From Candidatus Gastranaerophilales bacterium (GTDB taxonomy: Bacteria > Cyanobacteriota > Vampirovibrionia > Gastranaerophilales > Gastranaerophilaceae): DNA of 35,362 nucleotides. Positions 131 to 20,265 of the stretch are shown piece after piece; within the stretch, counting starts at the first letter, position 1, and every line of letters begins with the position of its first letter. A model generated the notes under the pieces. That model was not told the DNA's origin. It saw only the letters and a program-made list of their open reading frames with translations, and ran no database searches. A program made the translations under genes and the position numbers. The stretch spans positions 1-35,362 of the forward strand of contig CAJOOA010000064.1 of the NCBI GenBank assembly GCA_905236055.1, read 5' to 3'.

Positions 131-1312
131 ATGCATATCTATCCAATTAACACAAGCATTAATAATCAAGCTTCTTTTAAAGCGTTTCTATTGAAAGATA
201 ATGTTGAACTAACAGATTCTGTTAACGGCGAACCAATAAATGCTGCAATTGTAGAGCTAGAAACAGAGCCCAGAGAACTCATTGCAGATGCACGTTACAG
301 AGCAAGACAAAAAATGTCAAATGAAGAATTTGACAAAATTCTTACTGATAAACTCCTTAAGTTTGAAGATAAATATAGTGCATTGGATGAAATAGCTAAT
401 TATGAGAAGAATATTTATTTTGGCGATTATAAGTTTATGAACGATTTAGCAGAAAAAGGTACACTGCCGTACATTAGAGAAATTAATAAAAGAATCCAAA
501 GTACAAATTTGTTTAATAGAGAATTTGATGATAACAATGCAATATCAATAGGAAAATATTGGCATGATTATACGAATGGAAAGATGGATATTGTTCCCTC
601 AAAAAATTATGGCTTATCGGACAAAAAACTCGATGGATACATAAAAACAGGATACCCATGGAATCTTTCCCCGATTGACAGTTTTATTCCCCTATATTTT
701 GATTCACAACCAAAACGACAACGGATTTTGCTTGCCGTAAATTCACAAAATGACGGTAATTATAGAGATTTAAAGCCCGATACGAAAGTATACGGCTTGG
801 CCGAAATTTATACTGAAAGAGCAATGGATGCAATTGAAGGTTATTGTACCGGGAGAGAAAAACAATTTGCGGAAATTCGTAATGATGAAAAAGAATTGGA
901 TAATTTTATAAAGAAATGGGCTGATACTGCAGATAGAAAATATATTGAACTGTTTGATAAACTTCTGTACAGAATTTTACATAAGAACGGAATTTCAGAA
1001 AATGAATTTTTACAAAGTACTTATATCAAATCCCCAAAACAGCTAGGAGAGGAAGCGATTAATGATTTATACTTAAAAGACAGCAAGATAGAACCAGTAC
1101 ACATATCTTCCATAGGAATACTTAGCCATATCAAAGGCACCGGAAAAGCTCTTTTAAAAACAATATGCGAAAAAGGTAAATATTGCGGCGTGGAGGTTAA
1201 TACTTCCGACTTAATGACAGAAGGATTTTTCGCTAAATACGGATTCAAAAACATCCCCGGCTTGAAAGAAAATAAATTATTTAAGCCAGGTATTTTCAAA
1301 ATGTTTCATTAA
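131..1312 (+). CDS. GNAT-like acetyltransferase-fold protein with F-x-A N-terminal motif
   Basis: A 393-residue protein of unknown function. The start is ATG 131 behind AAGGAG at 119-124. The first 18 residues are Asn-rich and end in SFKA (15-18), a pattern shared with other proteins in this window. Residues about 25-220 are charged and probably helical, with no domain I recognise. The C-terminus looks like a GCN5-related N-acetyltransferase: a strand VHISSIGIL, then a K-G-T-G-K acetyl-CoA loop (about 335-339) leading into a helix, then FFAKYGF (366-372), a typical end of the GNAT fold. The substrate cannot be told. The gene stands alone and converges on the next gene over a shared terminator. 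The GNAT call is moderate; the N-terminal two thirds could be a separate domain. Confidence 0.8.
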   Translation: MHIYPINTSINNQASFKAFLLKDNVELTDSVNGEPINAAIVELETEPRELIADARYRARQKMSNEEFDKILTDKLLKFEDKYSALDEIANYEKNIYFGDYKFMNDLAEKGTLPYIREINKRIQSTNLFNREFDDNNAISIGKYWHDYTNGKMDIVPSKNYGLSDKKLDGYIKTGYPWNLSPIDSFIPLYFDSQPKRQRILLAVNSQNDGNYRDLKPDTKVYGLAEIYTERAMDAIEGYCTGREKQFAEIRNDEKELDNFIKKWADTADRKYIELFDKLLYRILHKNGISENEFLQSTYIKSPKQLGEEAINDLYLKDSKIEPVHISSIGILSHIKGTGKALLKTICEKGKYCGVEVNTSDLMTEGFFAKYGFKNIPGLKENKLFKPGIFKMFH

Positions 1313-1380: not shown

Positions 1381-2601
1381 TTATTCAATTTCTCCCGCAG
1401 TTTTACCATATTTTCTGATTGTAGCATTTAAGAGATTTTCGTGATGTTTATCTCTATAAATTTGACATAAAAGCTTGTATGCATATTTATTATACGGATT
1501 TTCTCTCAAGAGTTGTTCAAGTTGTTGAACAGCTGTATTTGAACGCTTCATATAATAATTCAACAAGGGAGGAAGTGTAATCGTTAAATCATTTTCATCA
1601 GTAGCCCATGCAATATCTGCAGCACTTTTCGCATCATCAAACATTTCTGCATCGAGATACATTACCGCAACTTCGTAGTATACTTCCGAACGGCTTCTGT
1701 TATCAGTTTTTGACTGAGCAACAATCTGGTATTCACGTGCAGCTTTGTCATATTGCGCACGTTTTCTTAATTGTTCCGCAAGTGCCAAATGAGATTCAAC
1801 ATCTGTTCCAACATATTCGTTTAGGTCAGTATTATCATCAACCGGAACATTCAATGTCGCAAGAATTTCAGAGGATGTAAATAACAATGCTTTTTCGCCT
1901 TCTGAAAGAGGAACATTTGTAATATCAGGAATTGTTGCATAAACCAATGCAAGCGTTTTTAAATCTCTTGTCGTAATTTCTGTATTAAATTTCGTTCCAA
2001 CAGGATACATAACGTCATAAATACTAGGGCTTGCTCCTGTTAAACCAATTGAATGGCCTATCGTTTGCAATGCTGAAGAATAAAGTTGTTTAGAATCGTG
2101 ACTATGACCTTTATCATCAGCCCTGCTGAAGGTTATAACAGAATTTGTAATAATATTATCTTTAACAGCGAATTCATGAACACCCATTGCTGAATTTGTT
2201 TGGCTTACACCTTTGAAATAACATTTAGTATCAGCTTGAGAAGAATCTTCAACAAATTCAAATCTTACTATTCCTTCGCTTGCTCTTTGCCATGCAAGGT
2301 ATGCGTTCATAACAACTTCTCTGTAATATTCCGGAACACTTTTTGAATCTTCTATATAAACTTTTAACGGCATGGAAGCTGTGTTCCAACGAATAATTTT
2401 CCCGCCTTTGCAAATTTGTCTGTAATAACTGTCAATGACCGCTGCCTTTATGGTTTTTTGACTCATAAGTTTGTCATAACGTAAAGTAATTGCCGCAATT
2501 TTTTGCAGTCCGAAGTTTTGTTCTTGCGGAGCTGTCTGAACACTTGTAAAAGCAAATACTCCAAATGCAATCAGGAATGTACCAATAACCAGTTTTTTCA
2601 T
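1381..2601 (-). CDS. Secreted matrixin-fold protein with lost zinc site, plus TPR-like tail
   Basis: A 406-residue exported protein. A signal peptide (KK then a hydrophobic run to about residue 23) leads into a region shaped like the matrixin metallopeptidases: a WNTASMPLKVYI strand, an active-site helix, and a Met-turn D-V-M-Y-P (196-200). The zinc motif HExGHxxGxxH reads Q-T-I-G-H-S-I-G-L-T-G at 179-189, so the first His, the catalytic Glu and the third His are all replaced. It is therefore probably not a protease but keeps the fold. Residues about 265-400 look like three tetratricopeptide-type helical pairs, usually for protein binding. A GTG 15 bases upstream is in frame, but ATG 2601 is chosen because GAGG (2610-2613) is well spaced for it. 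Binding or scaffold function in the envelope is inference. Confidence 0.85.
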   Translation of the reverse strand: MKKLVIGTFLIAFGVFAFTSVQTAPQEQNFGLQKIAAITLRYDKLMSQKTIKAAVIDSYYRQICKGGKIIRWNTASMPLKVYIEDSKSVPEYYREVVMNAYLAWQRASEGIVRFEFVEDSSQADTKCYFKGVSQTNSAMGVHEFAVKDNIITNSVITFSRADDKGHSHDSKQLYSSALQTIGHSIGLTGASPSIYDVMYPVGTKFNTEITTRDLKTLALVYATIPDITNVPLSEGEKALLFTSSEILATLNVPVDDNTDLNEYVGTDVESHLALAEQLRKRAQYDKAAREYQIVAQSKTDNRSRSEVYYEVAVMYLDAEMFDDAKSAADIAWATDENDLTITLPPLLNYYMKRSNTAVQQLEQLLRENPYNKYAYKLLCQIYRDKHHENLLNATIRKYGKTAGEIE

Positions 2602-2696
2602 CTGTTTTAACCTCACTTTATCTAAAAATATTTTCCAACTAAATACAAAATTTATTTGTGATACCCTTGCGCTTATTCTACAACAGATAAAATAAA

Positions 2697-2879: not shown

Positions 2880-3611
2880 ATGGCTAATTATTCATTCATA
2901 ATTAAAAAAGGGAAATATCGACTTGAATTAATTACTACGGACAGAGAACTTTTATCTGAGCAATTTGAGCAGTGGGTTCACAGTGCCGGTGATTATGTTT
3001 TGCAAAAGAAAATGCTTGAACATAAAAATGCTATGGATACCCAAATACAAGAAGAAGAAAAAATAACCCAAAAAAATATTGAAAAACAGATTCGCAAAAC
3101 TGAGCCAGAAAAGGTTGAAATTAAAGAAGAGCCCGATCCTAAAAATGAAGAAACCCAATTGAAAGAAGATTTGGATATATTTTATTCCGTTCCTGCAAGT
3201 GAAACACCTGAAGAAGAATCAAAAACACAACCGTCAGAAAGTGTTTTTGACTCTATATTAGACAATTCCATGAAAAATCCGCAAACTGAAGTTTCATTTA
3301 AATCAAGTCCTTCCATCAAAAAAGACAATGCTTTTATTAATTTCATGGGAGACAAAAAAATTGACAAAAAAATAGATTATTTGCTTTTAACTGCATACTA
3401 TTTTTCACAATTCGAACAAAAACCCCGTTTCACTCTTAAACAATTAAATTCAAAGTTAATGCAAAATTTGGCGGTCATTATTGACCATAGCGTACTACAA
3501 GAAGCAATTAACAGGGATTATATAGAATGTTTGCCGGATTTAACAGGTTTGGTTGGAGCGAGTGAATATCGTTTAACGGCATATGGTGAAAAAACCATTT
3601 TAGATGCCTAA
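2880..3611 (+). CDS. Three-part protein: duplicated N-module, acidic linker, C-terminal helical domain
   Basis: A 243-residue cytoplasmic protein that I do not recognise. Residues 1-45 match the preceding 40-residue protein. Residues about 46-150 are a low-complexity, Glu/Lys/Pro/Ser-rich linker, likely disordered. Residues about 155-243 form a compact, conserved-looking domain (DYLLLTAYYFSQFE, then LTAYGEKTILDA at the end) that resembles a winged-helix or similar DNA/protein-binding fold. No signal peptide or membrane segment. It follows the 40-residue gene by 11 bases with only a weak Shine-Dalgarno, so it is probably translationally coupled. Its stop overlaps the stop of pncC on the other strand by four bases. 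Confidence 0.85.
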   Translation: MANYSFIIKKGKYRLELITTDRELLSEQFEQWVHSAGDYVLQKKMLEHKNAMDTQIQEEEKITQKNIEKQIRKTEPEKVEIKEEPDPKNEETQLKEDLDIFYSVPASETPEEESKTQPSESVFDSILDNSMKNPQTEVSFKSSPSIKKDNAFINFMGDKKIDKKIDYLLLTAYYFSQFEQKPRFTLKQLNSKLMQNLAVIIDHSVLQEAINRDYIECLPDLTGLVGASEYRLTAYGEKTILDA

Positions 3612-4084
3612 TTTTTAATAAAGGTTTTGATATTTTTAAGCACTTCTTCCGCAAACAACTCTTTCATTTCAATTCGCGGAGTATCTGAAGGTTTAATAAT
3701 TTTATAAATTTTGTATTCCTTGGGAGTGTAAATGCAAGAATACATTAATCCCACCGGTTTATCTGCACTCCCTCCTGTCGGACCTGCAATACCTGTCGTT
3801 GAAACACAAATATCGGATTTTGTTAGTTCGAAAAGTCCTTTTGCCATTTGATATGCACATTCTTCACATACAGCGCCTTTTGTTTTAAGCAAATCTTCAT
3901 TTACTCCGAGCAGCTGCATTTTTGCTTCATTTGCATAAGTTACAATATTAAGCGTAATATAGGCCGAACTTCCCGAAACATCAGTCAATTTTGAACTCAA
4001 AAGCCCACCGGTACATGATTCTGCAGTAGAAACGGTTAATTTCTTTTCTATCAATAATCTTCCGACTTCTTCCGCAATATCCAT
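3608..4084 (-). CDS. pncC: Nicotinamide-nucleotide amidohydrolase (CinA C-terminal family)
   Basis: A 158-residue stand-alone CinA C-terminal domain. This family deamidates nicotinamide mononucleotide to nicotinate mononucleotide, recycling the NAD by-product made by DNA ligase. The signature blocks are present: TAESCTGG (20-27), VTYANEAK (48-55), and TTGIAGPTGG (96-105). Length is right for PncC without the CinA N-terminal domain. Its ATG overlaps the TAA of the secreted unknown by one base, so the two are co-transcribed and coupled. The name competence/damage-inducible protein is historical for this family. Confidence 0.93.
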   Translation of the reverse strand: MDIAEEVGRLLIEKKLTVSTAESCTGGLLSSKLTDVSGSSAYITLNIVTYANEAKMQLLGVNEDLLKTKGAVCEECAYQMAKGLFELTKSDICVSTTGIAGPTGGSADKPVGLMYSCIYTPKEYKIYKIIKPSDTPRIEMKELFAEEVLKNIKTFIKN

Positions 4085-4686
4085 TAATACGTCGTCCTTT
4101 TTAAAATAACTTTAGAATGCTTGTCATACATATTATGTTTATACCAAACACCTTTAAAGGTTCCGTCCGGTTCAAAAATATATTGATTATCCTTTGATAC
4201 ATAATATACTGCGCTCACAGGTTTGCCGGAAACTCTGTATTGAATGGCATAATAAGGATACTCAGGATATTCACCATAAATGTAATCAACATATCTTAGG
4301 TGCCCCAAAGCATCATAATAATAGGATTTTGATACGTCTTTTTTATTTTGTAGTGCATACATATAAATGTATTTTTGATTTTTGTAATAAAATGCGGAAA
4401 TTATATCTTCACCGCACTCTTCATGCCCCGCGGATGCGGCTAAATAATGTTCCATATGATTTTTATCTTTGCGCCTGTCTTTAATATCCGCCTTGATATC
4501 TTTTTTCCGTAATTCCGGGGCTTCAAAAATAATATCGTGAACTTCGTTAATTATAGCTTCCTTTTCAACATCTGTTTTTTTAATCCAATCGTATTGAATA
4601 TCTGCAATGTAAATATCATTGTAGTTGGCGCAGCATAAACCTTGTGCAATAAAAACAGATATTAAACAAAATAAAAATTTCTTCAT
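4084..4686 (-). CDS. Secreted tyrosine-rich protein of unknown function
   Basis: A 200-residue exported protein I do not recognise. Residues 1-19 are a signal peptide (MKK, hydrophobic core, C-C-A cleavage region); the CC could also suggest lipidation but does not form a clear lipobox. Residues 30-85 are charged helix. Residues 95-190 are rich in Tyr and read as a run of short beta strands (YYDALGHLRYVDYIYG, YYAIQYRVSG, YVSKDNQYIFEPDG), like a small antiparallel sheet or YD/MORN-type repeat. A GGAGG (4691-4695) precedes ATG 4686. It is the first gene of a two-gene unit with pncC. Confidence 0.85.
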   Translation of the reverse strand: MKKFLFCLISVFIAQGLCCANYNDIYIADIQYDWIKKTDVEKEAIINEVHDIIFEAPELRKKDIKADIKDRRKDKNHMEHYLAASAGHEECGEDIISAFYYKNQKYIYMYALQNKKDVSKSYYYDALGHLRYVDYIYGEYPEYPYYAIQYRVSGKPVSAVYYVSKDNQYIFEPDGTFKGVWYKHNMYDKHSKVILKRTTY

Positions 4687-7313: not shown

Positions 7314-8240
7314 ATGAACGATTTTAAACATTATACCGTTATGCTCAATGAGGCCGTGGATGCGTTGGAATGTCAGAATGGCAAAATATACGTTGACTGT
7401 ACTCTCGGAGGAGGAGGGCATAGTGAACTGATTTTGCAAAGAATTTCGCCTGACGGAAAACTTATAGCATTTGATATCGACGATGAAGCCATTGCATATT
7501 CAAAAGAACGGTTAAAAAATTACAAAAATCTTACTATCGTTAAATCCTCTTACACAAATATAAAATCAGAACTCAAAAAGCTGGGAATAGAAAAGATTAC
7601 CGGTGGTGTTATTCTTGACTTAGGCGCCTCATATCATCAGTTAACGAAAGCGGAACGCGGTTTTTCTTTTTCTAAAGATGCCCCACTCGATATGAGATTT
7701 AATAATGACAGTGAGCTCACCGCTTTTACGGTTGTTAATACCTATAAAGAAGATGAATTAATACGTATTTTCAGTGAATATGGCGAAGAGAGGTTTTCAA
7801 AAAGAATTGCAAAAAAAATTGTTGAAGTTCGTTCTAAAAAGAGGATTGAAACAACTTGCGAATTGGCAAATATTATTTTGGGCGCAACACCAAGAATTAA
7901 AAGTTCTGTACACCCTGCTACAAGAGTATTTCAAGCCATTAGAATTGAAGTCAATAATGAGTTACAAAATGTAAATAATGTGTTGCATGATATATTGGAT
8001 TTAATAGATGTTGGTGGTATAATTTCGGTATTAAGTTTTCATTCGCTGGAAGACAGAATCGTAAAAAAATTCTTTAAGTATGAAAGCCAAAGGTGCAGAT
8101 GTAATGAAATGATTTGCAAATGCCCACCGCCTAAAATAGAGCTTGTTAATAAAAGGCCTATTACGGCATCAATGGAGGAGTTAAAAATAAATCCGCCATC
8201 GAGAAGCGCTAAGCTTAGAATAGCGAGATGTATTTCCTGA
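7314..8240 (+). CDS. rsmH: 16S rRNA (cytosine1402-N4)-methyltransferase
   Basis: A 308-residue RsmH (MraW), which methylates the N4 of C1402 in 16S rRNA using S-adenosylmethionine. Seen are the family start F-K-H-Y-T-V-M-L, the SAM loop VDCTLGGGGHS, LDLGASYHQL, ERGFSF..DAPLDMRF, VLSFHSLEDRIVKKFF, and the C-terminal P-P-S-R-S-A-K-L-R. An in-frame TTG 60 bases upstream was rejected since the conserved family N-terminus begins at ATG 7314. There is no Shine-Dalgarno before it, and a TACAAT lies seven bases upstream, so a leaderless transcript is possible. As in the dcw cluster of other bacteria it is followed by an ftsL-like gene. Confidence 0.96.
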   Translation: MNDFKHYTVMLNEAVDALECQNGKIYVDCTLGGGGHSELILQRISPDGKLIAFDIDDEAIAYSKERLKNYKNLTIVKSSYTNIKSELKKLGIEKITGGVILDLGASYHQLTKAERGFSFSKDAPLDMRFNNDSELTAFTVVNTYKEDELIRIFSEYGEERFSKRIAKKIVEVRSKKRIETTCELANIILGATPRIKSSVHPATRVFQAIRIEVNNELQNVNNVLHDILDLIDVGGIISVLSFHSLEDRIVKKFFKYESQRCRCNEMICKCPPPKIELVNKRPITASMEELKINPPSRSAKLRIARCIS

Positions 8241-8259: not shown

Positions 8260-8805
8260 TTGGTATACGCCTTCAAAAGTTATAACAATAATCAGTCTTA
8301 TAAAAGAGAAGATAACGGCAGTCCTTTGGATGTTTTGATTAAAAAGATTTCTGGAGAAACAGTTTCTCAATATCCGAAAAGGAAAAAAACATTTTTGGAC
8401 AAATCTGTTCAAAATCTTGCCGTTAATAGTATAATAGAGGGGAATTTTCCCAAGGAGAACGTCGTACGACAAATGGCTATTAAACGTGTAAATAAAATGC
8501 TTTGTGTTATTTTGAGTATTCTTATTGCCGTTGTTATTGTAAGTTATTATTTCGTTATAACAAATGAGATGAAACTTAATGAGATTAGCAGACAAACCAT
8601 CGTTTTAAACAATGAAAATGCGGAGTTGCAAAACAGGTTAGACAGTCTGAAATCATTTAACAACGTTGATAAAACCTTACAAAAAAATAATATGCTTCAA
8701 AGAGCAGGACAAGTTATTGAAACTAAAGCTATCGAAGTCGATTCAAGTGAAAGTGCCGTAAAAACTTCAAAAAGAAGATTGTTTAATTATGCAATCGGGT
8801 TTTAG
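8260..8805 (+). CDS. FtsL-like bitopic membrane protein
   Basis: A 181-residue protein: about 79 basic cytoplasmic residues, one transmembrane segment (80-100), then a coiled coil (about 103-135) and a short basic tail. This topology and its place 19 bases behind rsmH match FtsL, the division protein that joins FtsB/FtsQ at the septum; FtsL sequences diverge too much to confirm by motif. The cytoplasmic part is longer than in most FtsL. The start is TTG 8260 with AGGGAG at 8247-8252. mraZ, ftsI and mur genes do not follow, so the cluster is cut short. I leave the symbol blank because identity rests on topology and context. Confidence 0.8.
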   Translation: MVYAFKSYNNNQSYKREDNGSPLDVLIKKISGETVSQYPKRKKTFLDKSVQNLAVNSIIEGNFPKENVVRQMAIKRVNKMLCVILSILIAVVIVSYYFVITNEMKLNEISRQTIVLNNENAELQNRLDSLKSFNNVDKTLQKNNMLQRAGQVIETKAIEVDSSESAVKTSKRRLFNYAIGF

Positions 8806-8816
8806 GTTCTTCGCAA

Positions 8817-9764
8817 ATGTGTGTGAATTTATTAAAAAATAAAACTTTTTTTAAACTCGTATGCGGAGCCGGCAATGAAGATTTGGAATCCGTGAAAAAG
8901 TGTGTGTACGTTTACGCAAAAGCCGGTTGTAAGGTTTTTGATTTATCTGCAAAAAAAGAAGTTTTGGAAGCAGCAAAAGATGGAGTGGATGCAGCAGGTA
9001 TATCGGATGCATATTATTGCGTATCAGTAGGTATTAAGGGGGACCCGCATATTTCAAAAGCGGGAGTAAACAGCTCTGCTTGTACAAAATGTGGCAATTG
9101 CGCAAGAAATTGCCCAAACAGTGCAATTTATCCGCCCAATTTGGTTGATGAAAAAAAATGCATCGGCTGCGGAATTTGTGCACAAAAATGTCCGGTATCC
9201 GCAATAAAAATGTACGAAAAAGATGTTGATGTCAAAAATATACTTCCTGATTTAGTAAAAAATGGTGCAAAAATTTTAGAATTGCATATTATGGGACACG
9301 ATAAGCAAGATTTGGAATACAAGTGGGAAATTATAAATAATTGCGCACCTGAACTTGCCTCTATTTGTGTCGATAGAGAAACGGTGGGAAACAAAGAAAT
9401 TTTATCCCTTTTAAAAGAAATGCTCAATGCAAGAACACCATACACAACCATAATTCAGGCCGACGGAATCCCTATGAGCGGTGGCTCGGACGATTTTAAA
9501 ACAACTCTGCAAGCGGTTTCTATGGCAGAGATAATTCAAAATGCGAATTTACCTGCCTATCTTACCCTATCAGGAGGAACAAATTCAAAAACGACAGAAT
9601 TATGCCGGCTTTGTAACATTTCTCCCAACGGAATCGCTATCGGTTCTTGGGCAAGAAAAATTATAAAACCATATACAGATATGCCTGATTTTTGGGAAAA
9701 TAAAGGAGCACAAAATAATGCAATCAAACTAGCTAAAAATCTTATTGACGCCAATTTAGGATAA
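8817..9764 (+). CDS. ldpA: LdpA family iron-sulfur protein
   Basis: A 315-residue homologue of cyanobacterial LdpA (light-dependent period), an iron-sulfur protein that in Synechococcus senses redox state and adjusts circadian period. The match covers the whole length: FFKLVCGAG near the start, two ferredoxin-type clusters (C89, C92, C95, C99-P and C115, C118, C121, C125-P), then the LdpA C-terminal region with IIQADGIPMSGG, LTLSGGTNSKT and GIAIGSWARK. All eight Cys are present, so two 4Fe-4S clusters are expected. The start is ATG 8817; the Shine-Dalgarno is only a TAGG at the ftsL-like stop. It is the last gene of the rsmH unit. What it senses here is unknown. Confidence 0.92.
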   Translation: MCVNLLKNKTFFKLVCGAGNEDLESVKKCVYVYAKAGCKVFDLSAKKEVLEAAKDGVDAAGISDAYYCVSVGIKGDPHISKAGVNSSACTKCGNCARNCPNSAIYPPNLVDEKKCIGCGICAQKCPVSAIKMYEKDVDVKNILPDLVKNGAKILELHIMGHDKQDLEYKWEIINNCAPELASICVDRETVGNKEILSLLKEMLNARTPYTTIIQADGIPMSGGSDDFKTTLQAVSMAEIIQNANLPAYLTLSGGTNSKTTELCRLCNISPNGIAIGSWARKIIKPYTDMPDFWENKGAQNNAIKLAKNLIDANLG

Positions 9765-9766
9765 AA

Positions 9767-9794
9767 AATATGCGGAGAAGTTTCTCCGCATATT
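9767..9794. terminator. Bidirectional terminator between ldpA and gltX
   Basis: A 13-bp perfect stem: AATATGCGGAGAA (9767-9779) pairs with 9782-9794 around a two-base centre. Each side is followed by a T-rich run in its own direction of transcription. Confidence 0.9.
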
Positions 9795-18663: not shown

Positions 18664-20265
18664 ATGGAATGTGTTTTTTTAAGTTTATTGGCACTATTTA
18701 TAAGCGGTTTTTTGGTTTTTTGTGCGAAACCGAAGTATAAATTCATTTTGTTCGCTATATGTTCTTTAATAGCGATTGGAGCAGTTATCAAACCCATATT
18801 TGATTCCCTAATGTTAGGTACCGGTTTTGATGTAAACAATGGGTTTCAAGTTTTTAAAGAACTGTTGCAAGTTAGCATAGATCCGTTCTCTGCGTTTATA
18901 ATTTTTATTACCGCTATACCATGCTTTTTATTCATAATTTACAAATTATTCCTAAAAGATTATGAATCGGATAATTTAATACCCGAAATTCTGACAGTAA
19001 CTTTGTTTTCTCTATTCTTAATTACATACACTCAAAACGAAATATATTTCTATATTGGATTTTTTATAGCAAATGTTGCCCTGCTGATGCTAATAACTAT
19101 TACTAATAATTCTGTCAAATTCGGAAGACAACTGATTTTGTGTGCTTGTTGTTGCTTTGTTTCATTGGCAATGATGTTGCTTGGAAAGCATTCACAAAGT
19201 TTCACGTTTAATGAAATTGTCAACTCCCTTGTAAGCAACGCATCCTACAGTAATGATATTTTTACGCTTATTTTTGCAGGATTCGGAATACCAGCAGTTA
19301 TACTAGGCAATTTAACAATTCGAGCAAAAAGTTTAAAAAATTCACGCTTTAGTGAATTACTGGTTGTCGAAACTTTATTCTATTCGATTTATTTTTATGG
19401 ACTGTTCAGATTTATTGGAATGGGCGCAGTACCATTTTTTATACGCCATTACACTATTTTAGGCATTTTGATACTTGCTATTGCAATACAACTTTATAAT
19501 TTTTTTAAAACAATAGATATTATAAAAATTTGCTCATACATAAAATCTATTCATTTCTCATTAGTATTACTTTCAATTTTGTTCGGAATCTTCGGATATG
19601 TATGTGAGATCCCTATTATTATGATATTAGGTTATTCAGCTGCTTTTATATTTTTTACAAATATTGTATTTGCAGGATACACTTTACAATTTAATATGAA
19701 TAAAATAACCCAAGATATAAATGAAACTGAAAAAAGAGAAATTGGACTGATTGAAGCATCCGGTTACAGAAAAATTCTTCCGATTGGGCTATTAAGTTAT
19801 GCCGGAGCCCCTGCAACTCTCGGGTTTTTAGGTTGGGCCGCCCTTGTTTGTGCTTTATATTTTGGTATTATTTCTCCAATTATTCAGTTAAAAATAGCTG
19901 CAATTATTCTCACAATTTTTGTTATAATAGTTTTTCTGCTTCAAAATACAAAAATATTTTTAGTAATGAAGGAAATTTATTGCAACAAAAATCAAGTTTT
20001 AAAAACTCACTTGCCGAAGCTGAATTTAACTTTTGCTTTAATTATAGTACTTGCAGGGTTATTCCCGAGTAAATTTTGTAATTTAATTTTTGTACCTGTA
20101 TCATTTTTTACAGGCGGTACTAAATTTTATAACATTTTTAACCATATTTTAATTATTTTGCGAAACTTTGGGATATATTTGACTATTTTTACAGTACTTT
20201 TTGTATCTTATCTTGTATTACGAGCATTAGTTCTAAAATATATTGAATCTCGTACAAAAGTATAA
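18664..20265 (+). CDS. Complex-I-like antiporter-type membrane subunit, lone and divergent
   Basis: A 533-residue protein with about 14 hydrophobic segments, resembling the NuoL/M/N and HyfB antiporter-like subunits. A glutamate in NEIYFYIGFFIANVALL lies where the family has its conserved TM5 Glu, and YAGAPATLGFLGWAALV matches the G-x-P-x-x-x-G-F signature. The usual lysine-bearing G-x-x-K segment of TM7 reads AGFGIPAVILGN, without Lys, and the Lys after G-F is Trp. No other nuo, mrp or hydrogenase gene is near. It may have lost or changed proton transport. It has its own promoter and Shine-Dalgarno. Confidence 0.8.
   Translation: MECVFLSLLALFISGFLVFCAKPKYKFILFAICSLIAIGAVIKPIFDSLMLGTGFDVNNGFQVFKELLQVSIDPFSAFIIFITAIPCFLFIIYKLFLKDYESDNLIPEILTVTLFSLFLITYTQNEIYFYIGFFIANVALLMLITITNNSVKFGRQLILCACCCFVSLAMMLLGKHSQSFTFNEIVNSLVSNASYSNDIFTLIFAGFGIPAVILGNLTIRAKSLKNSRFSELLVVETLFYSIYFYGLFRFIGMGAVPFFIRHYTILGILILAIAIQLYNFFKTIDIIKICSYIKSIHFSLVLLSILFGIFGYVCEIPIIMILGYSAAFIFFTNIVFAGYTLQFNMNKITQDINETEKREIGLIEASGYRKILPIGLLSYAGAPATLGFLGWAALVCALYFGIISPIIQLKIAAIILTIFVIIVFLLQNTKIFLVMKEIYCNKNQVLKTHLPKLNLTFALIIVLAGLFPSKFCNLIFVPVSFFTGGTKFYNIFNHILIILRNFGIYLTIFTVLFVSYLVLRALVLKYIESRTKV

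Follow-up and report, generated by a model that had tools for sequence, protein, structure and literature searches.

What does a protein of the cyanobacterial clock do in a bacterium that neither photosynthesizes nor appears to keep time? The only role described for LdpA, in Synechococcus elongatus, is redox sensing for the clock: the protein senses the redox state of plastoquinone and alters the levels of CikA by a mechanism given as unknown (PMC13421787). LdpA has also been called exclusive to Cyanobacteria (PMC5520375), and none of the papers covered by our literature search joins it with Melainabacteria. The question is raised by a contig of 35,362 nucleotides from a Candidatus Gastranaerophilales bacterium, referred to here as the window, in which an ldpA-family gene follows rsmH and an ftsL-like gene (Table 1). 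From this arrangement the first-pass annotation had proposed that LdpA once coupled redox state to cell division or rRNA maturation and was later recruited by the clock.

Table 1. Features of the rsmH-ftsL-ldpA unit and its surroundings in the window.
Feature	Position	Strand	Basis and remarks
rsmH, 16S rRNA m4C1402 methyltransferase, first in unit	7314..8240	+	TIGR00006, 351.8 bits; PF01795
ftsL-like gene, TTG start	8260..8805	+	hydrophobic stretch, then coiled-coil-like region (by eye); weak DivIC/FtsL_2 matches
ldpA-family gene	8817..9764	+	315 aa, zero internal stops; two-[4Fe-4S] ferredoxin set into a Ycf23-type (beta/alpha)8 barrel; PF12617, AlphaFold2, hhalign
ferredoxin-type insert, residues 82-136, eight Cys	9060..9224	+	Fer4 matches; alignment of 172 relatives; gap in Ycf23
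12-pair hairpin, terminator-like	9767..9794	.	2 bases past the ldpA stop codon; -20.6 kcal/mol, z -4.7 against shuffles

The unit is as compact as had been described. Only 19 bases separate rsmH from the ftsL-like frame and 11 bases separate the latter from ldpA, and the segment originally singled out, 8260-9764, spans both of these downstream genes. The DivIC profile scores the ftsL-like product at 14.7 bits, below its cut-off; the FtsL assignment, weak by profile, draws support from relatives, where the gene sits between rsmH and a PBP transpeptidase gene, and the position of rsmH ahead of ftsL is conserved in the whole order. The hairpin behind ldpA is terminator-like for the whole unit and might possibly serve the convergent gltX gene as well. 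Elsewhere in the window, five sizeable frames lack a Pfam match at E <= 1e-5: 131-1312 (+), 1381-2616 (-), 2880-3611 (+), 4084-4686 (-) and 18664-20265 (+).

The claim of an intact LdpA with all of its cluster cysteines holds at the level of the protein family. The window protein matches LdpA_C (PF12617) at 72.6 bits against a cut-off of 22.2, and carries two CxxCxxCxxxC motifs, at C89-C99 (C89, C92, C95, C99) and C115-C125 (C115, C118, C121, C125), as expected for two 4Fe-4S clusters. Across 172 relatives all eight cysteines are conserved, with departures solely at C92, in five of the six sequences of families f12 and f26. PF12617 matches all 92 aligned members, and PF25160, which describes the iron-sulfur domain, matches 82 of the 92 relatives at E <= 0.001 and scores the window protein at 26.3 bits, just under its cut-off of 27.6. 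The NCBIfam equivalog of the clock protein (NF045992) gives 140.7 bits, below its cut-off of 450, where one photosynthetic LdpA reaches 589.9; the window protein is therefore a member of the LdpA family rather than a certified clock LdpA. It shares with the photosynthetic forms the domain order, the eight cysteines, the invariant residues of the barrel and homology over the full length, but differs from them in its gene neighbors and in a host that lacks Kai proteins, photosystems and, by report, quinones. In the f12 and f26 sequences (L173-L178), the second cysteine of the first cluster is replaced by H, R or N, so that the cluster there may be [3Fe-4S] or otherwise ligated.

The lineage itself bears out the supposed absence of photosynthesis. 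Close relatives of the window are labelled Candidatus Gastranaerophilales, and reaction-centre genes were found in none of the 146 genomes of the class. Whether kai genes are missing from the same genomes was examined for KaiC and KaiB. KaiC exceeds its curated cut-off in 7 of the 146 genomes, all of family f8, and in neither the window genome nor any other LdpA-bearing genome of the class sample, while KaiB occurs in 2 of 57 relatives and is absent from the window genome. In family f8, LdpA was found neither with PF12617 nor with a deeper profile, and since KaiC over the cut-off is confined to this family, LdpA and a clock-type KaiC never occur together in the class sample (Fisher P about 0.001, computed over genomes that are not independent). 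Family f8 comprises large-genome Vampirovibrionia (for example G320, G357 and G358), and the KaiC of its seven positive genomes is full-length and clock-type. Melainabacteria are moreover reported to have neither quinones nor an electron transport chain, and to encode homologues of RpaA, RpaB and NblS (PMC3787301). Without quinones, plastoquinone sensing would be unavailable to the window lineage.

Gene order in relatives bears directly on the age of the link to division genes. The order rsmH-ftsL-ldpA is found in 29 of 34 genomes of the window genus (G000-G033), whose LdpA proteins make up a single subclade. Counted by locus, with duplicates included, it is kept at 63 of 71 loci of the genus, with a spacing mostly between -17 and 11 bases. 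Conservation across Vampirovibrionia, which the first-pass annotation had proposed to check, was not observed: a comparison of gene order recovered the linkage in no other family of the order. Nor is the link fixed within the genus, where ldpA lies away from rsmH-ftsL in G006, G016, G022 and G033, and where an insertion of two genes separates ftsL from ldpA in G026 (L046). An ldpA placed elsewhere in close relatives is the outcome that the first-pass annotation had named as refuting its idea. The other families of the order have, behind rsmH-ftsL, a gene whose product carries PBP transpeptidase and dimerisation domains, the classical position of ftsI. The rsmH-ftsL unit is thus conserved across the order and ldpA is not a fixed member of it; with the linkage confined to the window genus and an ftsI-like gene elsewhere, ldpA must have arrived behind ftsL in one subclade. 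Its position is a derived and recent local rearrangement, not an ancestral functional link, which may nonetheless give ldpA a growth-linked expression. One of the unlinked genomes, G006 (L090), has an RsmH and an FtsL that are 84% and 78% identical to those of the window, but an LdpA that is only 48% identical. The latter is 73% identical to a protein of family f6 (L084, G049) and is not encoded behind ftsL, an apparent replacement or else a binning error.

The older, phylum-wide neighbor of ldpA is a different gene, encoding an R3H/SpoIIIAA-type ATPase. It is the next gene after ldpA, in the same orientation, in 38 of 43 photosynthetic loci, in 15 of 20 loci from other orders of the class, in 14 of 17 Sericytochromatia-like loci and in 7 of 19 loci from other families of the order, a few genomes entering these counts twice. 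The neighboring ATPases are SpoIIIAA-like, match PF19568, PF25516 and PF01424, and include the R3H domain in full-length copies. Both genes are retained in the window genus and family, where they are unlinked; the window genome keeps its copy on another contig (G000:C81). We call this ATPase Ycf45-like, after the plastid gene, as a lead only. In five photosynthetic loci, NdhN lies upstream of ldpA.

LdpA is close to universal in the phylum. LdpA_C was detected in 240 of 244 genomes sampled across it, and in one of 14 control genomes, that of S. elongatus. A deeper profile recovered the protein in five genomes negative for PF12617 (G215, G220, G310, G316 and G341), and it was still missing with this profile from G056, G320, G300, G182, G319 and G106. 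The sample includes 18 deep-branching genomes that lie outside the class (families f10, f12, f16, f19, f20, f23 and f26) and that we call Sericytochromatia-like by elimination; 17 of them encode LdpA, and none of the 18 has a reaction centre or a KaiC over the cut-off. The remainder of the phylum outside the class is referred to here as photosynthetic, the reaction centre having been checked directly in three cases. Since LdpA is phylum-wide, it predates, or is at least independent of, both photosynthesis and the clock. That it is actually older than photosynthesis in the phylum depends on the accepted branching order, from which we infer it. The idea of an older role thus survives in part: the presence of an intact LdpA in a clockless, non-photosynthetic lineage, together with its spread throughout the phylum, favors a function that preceded or did not need the clock, whose use of the protein is probably secondary, and gene order speaks against that function having been a coupling to division. 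Extra N-terminal frames in two long f19 sequences (L223 and L224) were considered as gene fusions and rejected, as they read as GC-rich non-coding sequence.

A tree of 119 LdpA proteins, in which the root was not placed, agrees with this distribution. Twenty canonical photosynthetic sequences form one clade (SH-aLRT 100) and 15 Sericytochromatia-like sequences another (99), while the window protein falls inside a 13-member clade of its own genus (99), deep among Gastranaerophilales. When four long branches are omitted and the rows of f23 and g107 are set aside, all Gastranaerophilales lie on one side of a single branch (support 80). The tree is consistent with descent from the phylum's ancestor and some later transfers. 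It does not fit a recent acquisition from a photosynthetic cyanobacterium, the other outcome that the first-pass annotation had named as refuting; vertical descent of the window gene is plausible. The transfers include two picocyanobacterium-like genomes of about 1.7 Mb in a single contig (G276 and G220; family f35, genus g107). Their LdpA proteins (L218 and L220) are 53-56% identical to those of the non-photosynthetic family f23 (L217 and L219), with which the tree groups them at full support, and 33-36% identical to those of other f35 members, which looks like replacement by transfer.

The structure predicted for the protein offers a clue to its chemistry. AlphaFold2 models the window LdpA with a mean pLDDT of 95.2 and a pTM of 0.93 as a TIM barrel, with strands at residues 11-15, 40-43, 66-72, 151-157, 180-185, 211-216, 248-252 and 272-275; strand 3 is followed by the inserted ferredoxin segment (about 82-136). 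The insert repeats the CxxCxxCxxxC motif twice, as do two-[4Fe-4S] bacterial ferredoxins (Fer4, RnfB and polyferredoxins), but it sits in the barrel between strand 3 and helix 3 and is not a separate carrier. The best matches among solved structures are the phosphate-binding barrels KDPG aldolase, ribulose-phosphate 3-epimerase (RPE) and TrpA (Z 16-18). LdpA resembles these in fold and in having a GG behind strand 7 and a G-S behind strand 8, placed as in phosphate sites; it is only about 10-18% identical to them, and the comparison brought out no catalytic set in common. Many TIM barrels matched equally well, and no single enzyme function was named from the fold; in a sequence search of the PDB, the best 60 of 297 matches were to ferredoxin domains only.

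The nearest relative by profile is Ycf23/DUF561 (PF04481). Alignment of the LdpA and Ycf23 profiles from the same phylum by hhalign gave 98.4% (E 9e-15, 227 columns), with the gap in Ycf23 falling exactly at the ferredoxin insert, as against 1.5% for an unrelated TIM barrel (HMGL-like) and less than 1% for shuffled or reversed columns. Individually, 22 of 92 LdpA members match DUF561 (E <= 0.001). The window protein does not (cut-off 21.6 bits), and given the homology between profiles it is thus a relative of DUF561 and not a member. Of the near-invariant residues other than cysteine, 17 of 21 lie at the C-terminal ends of strands, which form the ligand face (P = 2e-8). A set of invariant residues of the barrel, K13, D42, S70, D76, H78, E155, H157, Q214, D216, G217, G253, G254, N256, G276 and R280, lies on the same face as the ferredoxin insert. 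K13, D42, S70, E155, Q214, D216 (E in Ycf23), G217, G253 and G276 align with conserved residues of Ycf23, so that the two homologous barrels have K, D, S, E, Q, D/E and G in common at the mouth; Ycf23 differs in lacking the iron-sulfur insert. Either LdpA, a Ycf23 relative, gained a two-cluster ferredoxin or Ycf23 lost one, and the tree fits both. Like LdpA, Ycf23 occurs in nearly all genomes sampled. Known as a plastid reading frame, it also occurs in members of the phylum that do not photosynthesize: the window genome has it (G000:C28:350-1051), as do 21 of 22 other genomes tested.

With somewhat better than even confidence, we propose that the window gene is the Gastranaerophilales version of an LdpA inherited across the whole phylum Cyanobacteriota, and that LdpA belongs, as a redox-active enzyme or as a protein that binds a ligand, to the ancestral metabolism of cyanobacteria and was secondarily used by the clock. 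The mouth of the barrel, beneath the inserted ferredoxin, would hold a small and probably phosphorylated ligand, and the clusters could pass electrons to or from this ligand or report its redox state. In a fermenting member of the Gastranaerophilales, the partner might be the ferredoxin/hydrogenase electron pool, the natural candidate where photosystems, Kai proteins and, by report, quinones are absent. Wiring of this module to the clock through CikA would have come later, in photosynthetic cyanobacteria. A more specific version, which we hold tentatively and at less than even confidence, makes LdpA an oxidoreductase that has gone unrecognised and was already at work in the last common ancestor of Cyanobacteriota. 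It would have arisen when a two-cluster ferredoxin was inserted into a Ycf23-type barrel and would have acted on a phosphorylated metabolite, and the clock would later have taken the state of this enzyme as its redox input. Counting against an enzyme, we know of no ligand, substrate or reaction for either Ycf23 or LdpA, and the invariant residues of the barrel may have a structural role or may hold a ligand that regulates the protein. The absence of C92 from the f12/f26 group, the existence of family f8 without LdpA and the description of clock-related redox sensing as the sole role in S. elongatus (PMC13421787) also weigh against the proposal.

It is conceivable, if rather unlikely in our view, that LdpA is purely a redox sensor or regulator, its clusters sensing the redox state of the cell and its barrel serving as a rigid platform that binds no substrate but a partner protein such as a two-component regulator. 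The role described in S. elongatus, where LdpA senses redox state and affects how much CikA is present (PMC13421787), and the RpaA, RpaB and NblS homologues of Melainabacteria (PMC3787301) are in keeping with this, but the invariant polar residues gather at the barrel mouth as they do in enzymes, and some of them are common to Ycf23, which has no clusters. The conserved neighbor raises another alternative, in which LdpA works with the R3H/SpoIIIAA-type ATPase in an ancestral, redox-gated process involving RNA or other nucleic acids, potentially related to the ribosome. The frequency of this adjacency in four groups of loci and the domains of the ATPase argue for such a partnership; yet adjacency can mean shared expression only, the two genes are unlinked in the window genus and family, and LdpA itself has no known RNA-binding element, which together make it improbable.

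Far less probable still is that the rsmH unit tied LdpA ancestrally to division or to the maturation of rRNA, with recruitment to the clock following later. The unit is conserved in the window subclade and ends in a hairpin in the window, but it is limited to one subclade of one genus, a PBP transpeptidase gene occupies the place of ldpA in relatives, the ancestral neighbor is a different gene and the G026 insertion has already broken the linkage; gene order across genus, order and class thus leads us to reject division coupling as the ancestral role. It is most unlikely that gut bacteria recently acquired a clock LdpA from a photosynthetic cyanobacterium. Such a transfer would suit a protein described as exclusive to Cyanobacteria (PMC5520375), and transfers within the family do occur (G006, G220/G276), but the fully supported clade of canonical photosynthetic sequences excludes the window protein, whose identity to photosynthetic forms is only about 26-31%, and the tree rejects this origin.

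The interest of this locus therefore lies in a clockless, phylum-wide family with a Ycf23-plus-ferredoxin architecture, and not in the division genes beside which it was found. Published work presents LdpA as a clock-input protein that only Cyanobacteria possess, and we find it throughout their non-photosynthetic, clockless sister lineages. The combination of a Ycf23-type barrel with a ferredoxin insert provides a concrete hypothesis for LdpA chemistry, and the R3H/SpoIIIAA-type ATPase is a conserved neighbor worth testing. Clockless lineages supply natural 'clock-free' versions of the protein, and if LdpA is indeed an ancestral oxidoreductase, these gut relatives would show its original reaction.
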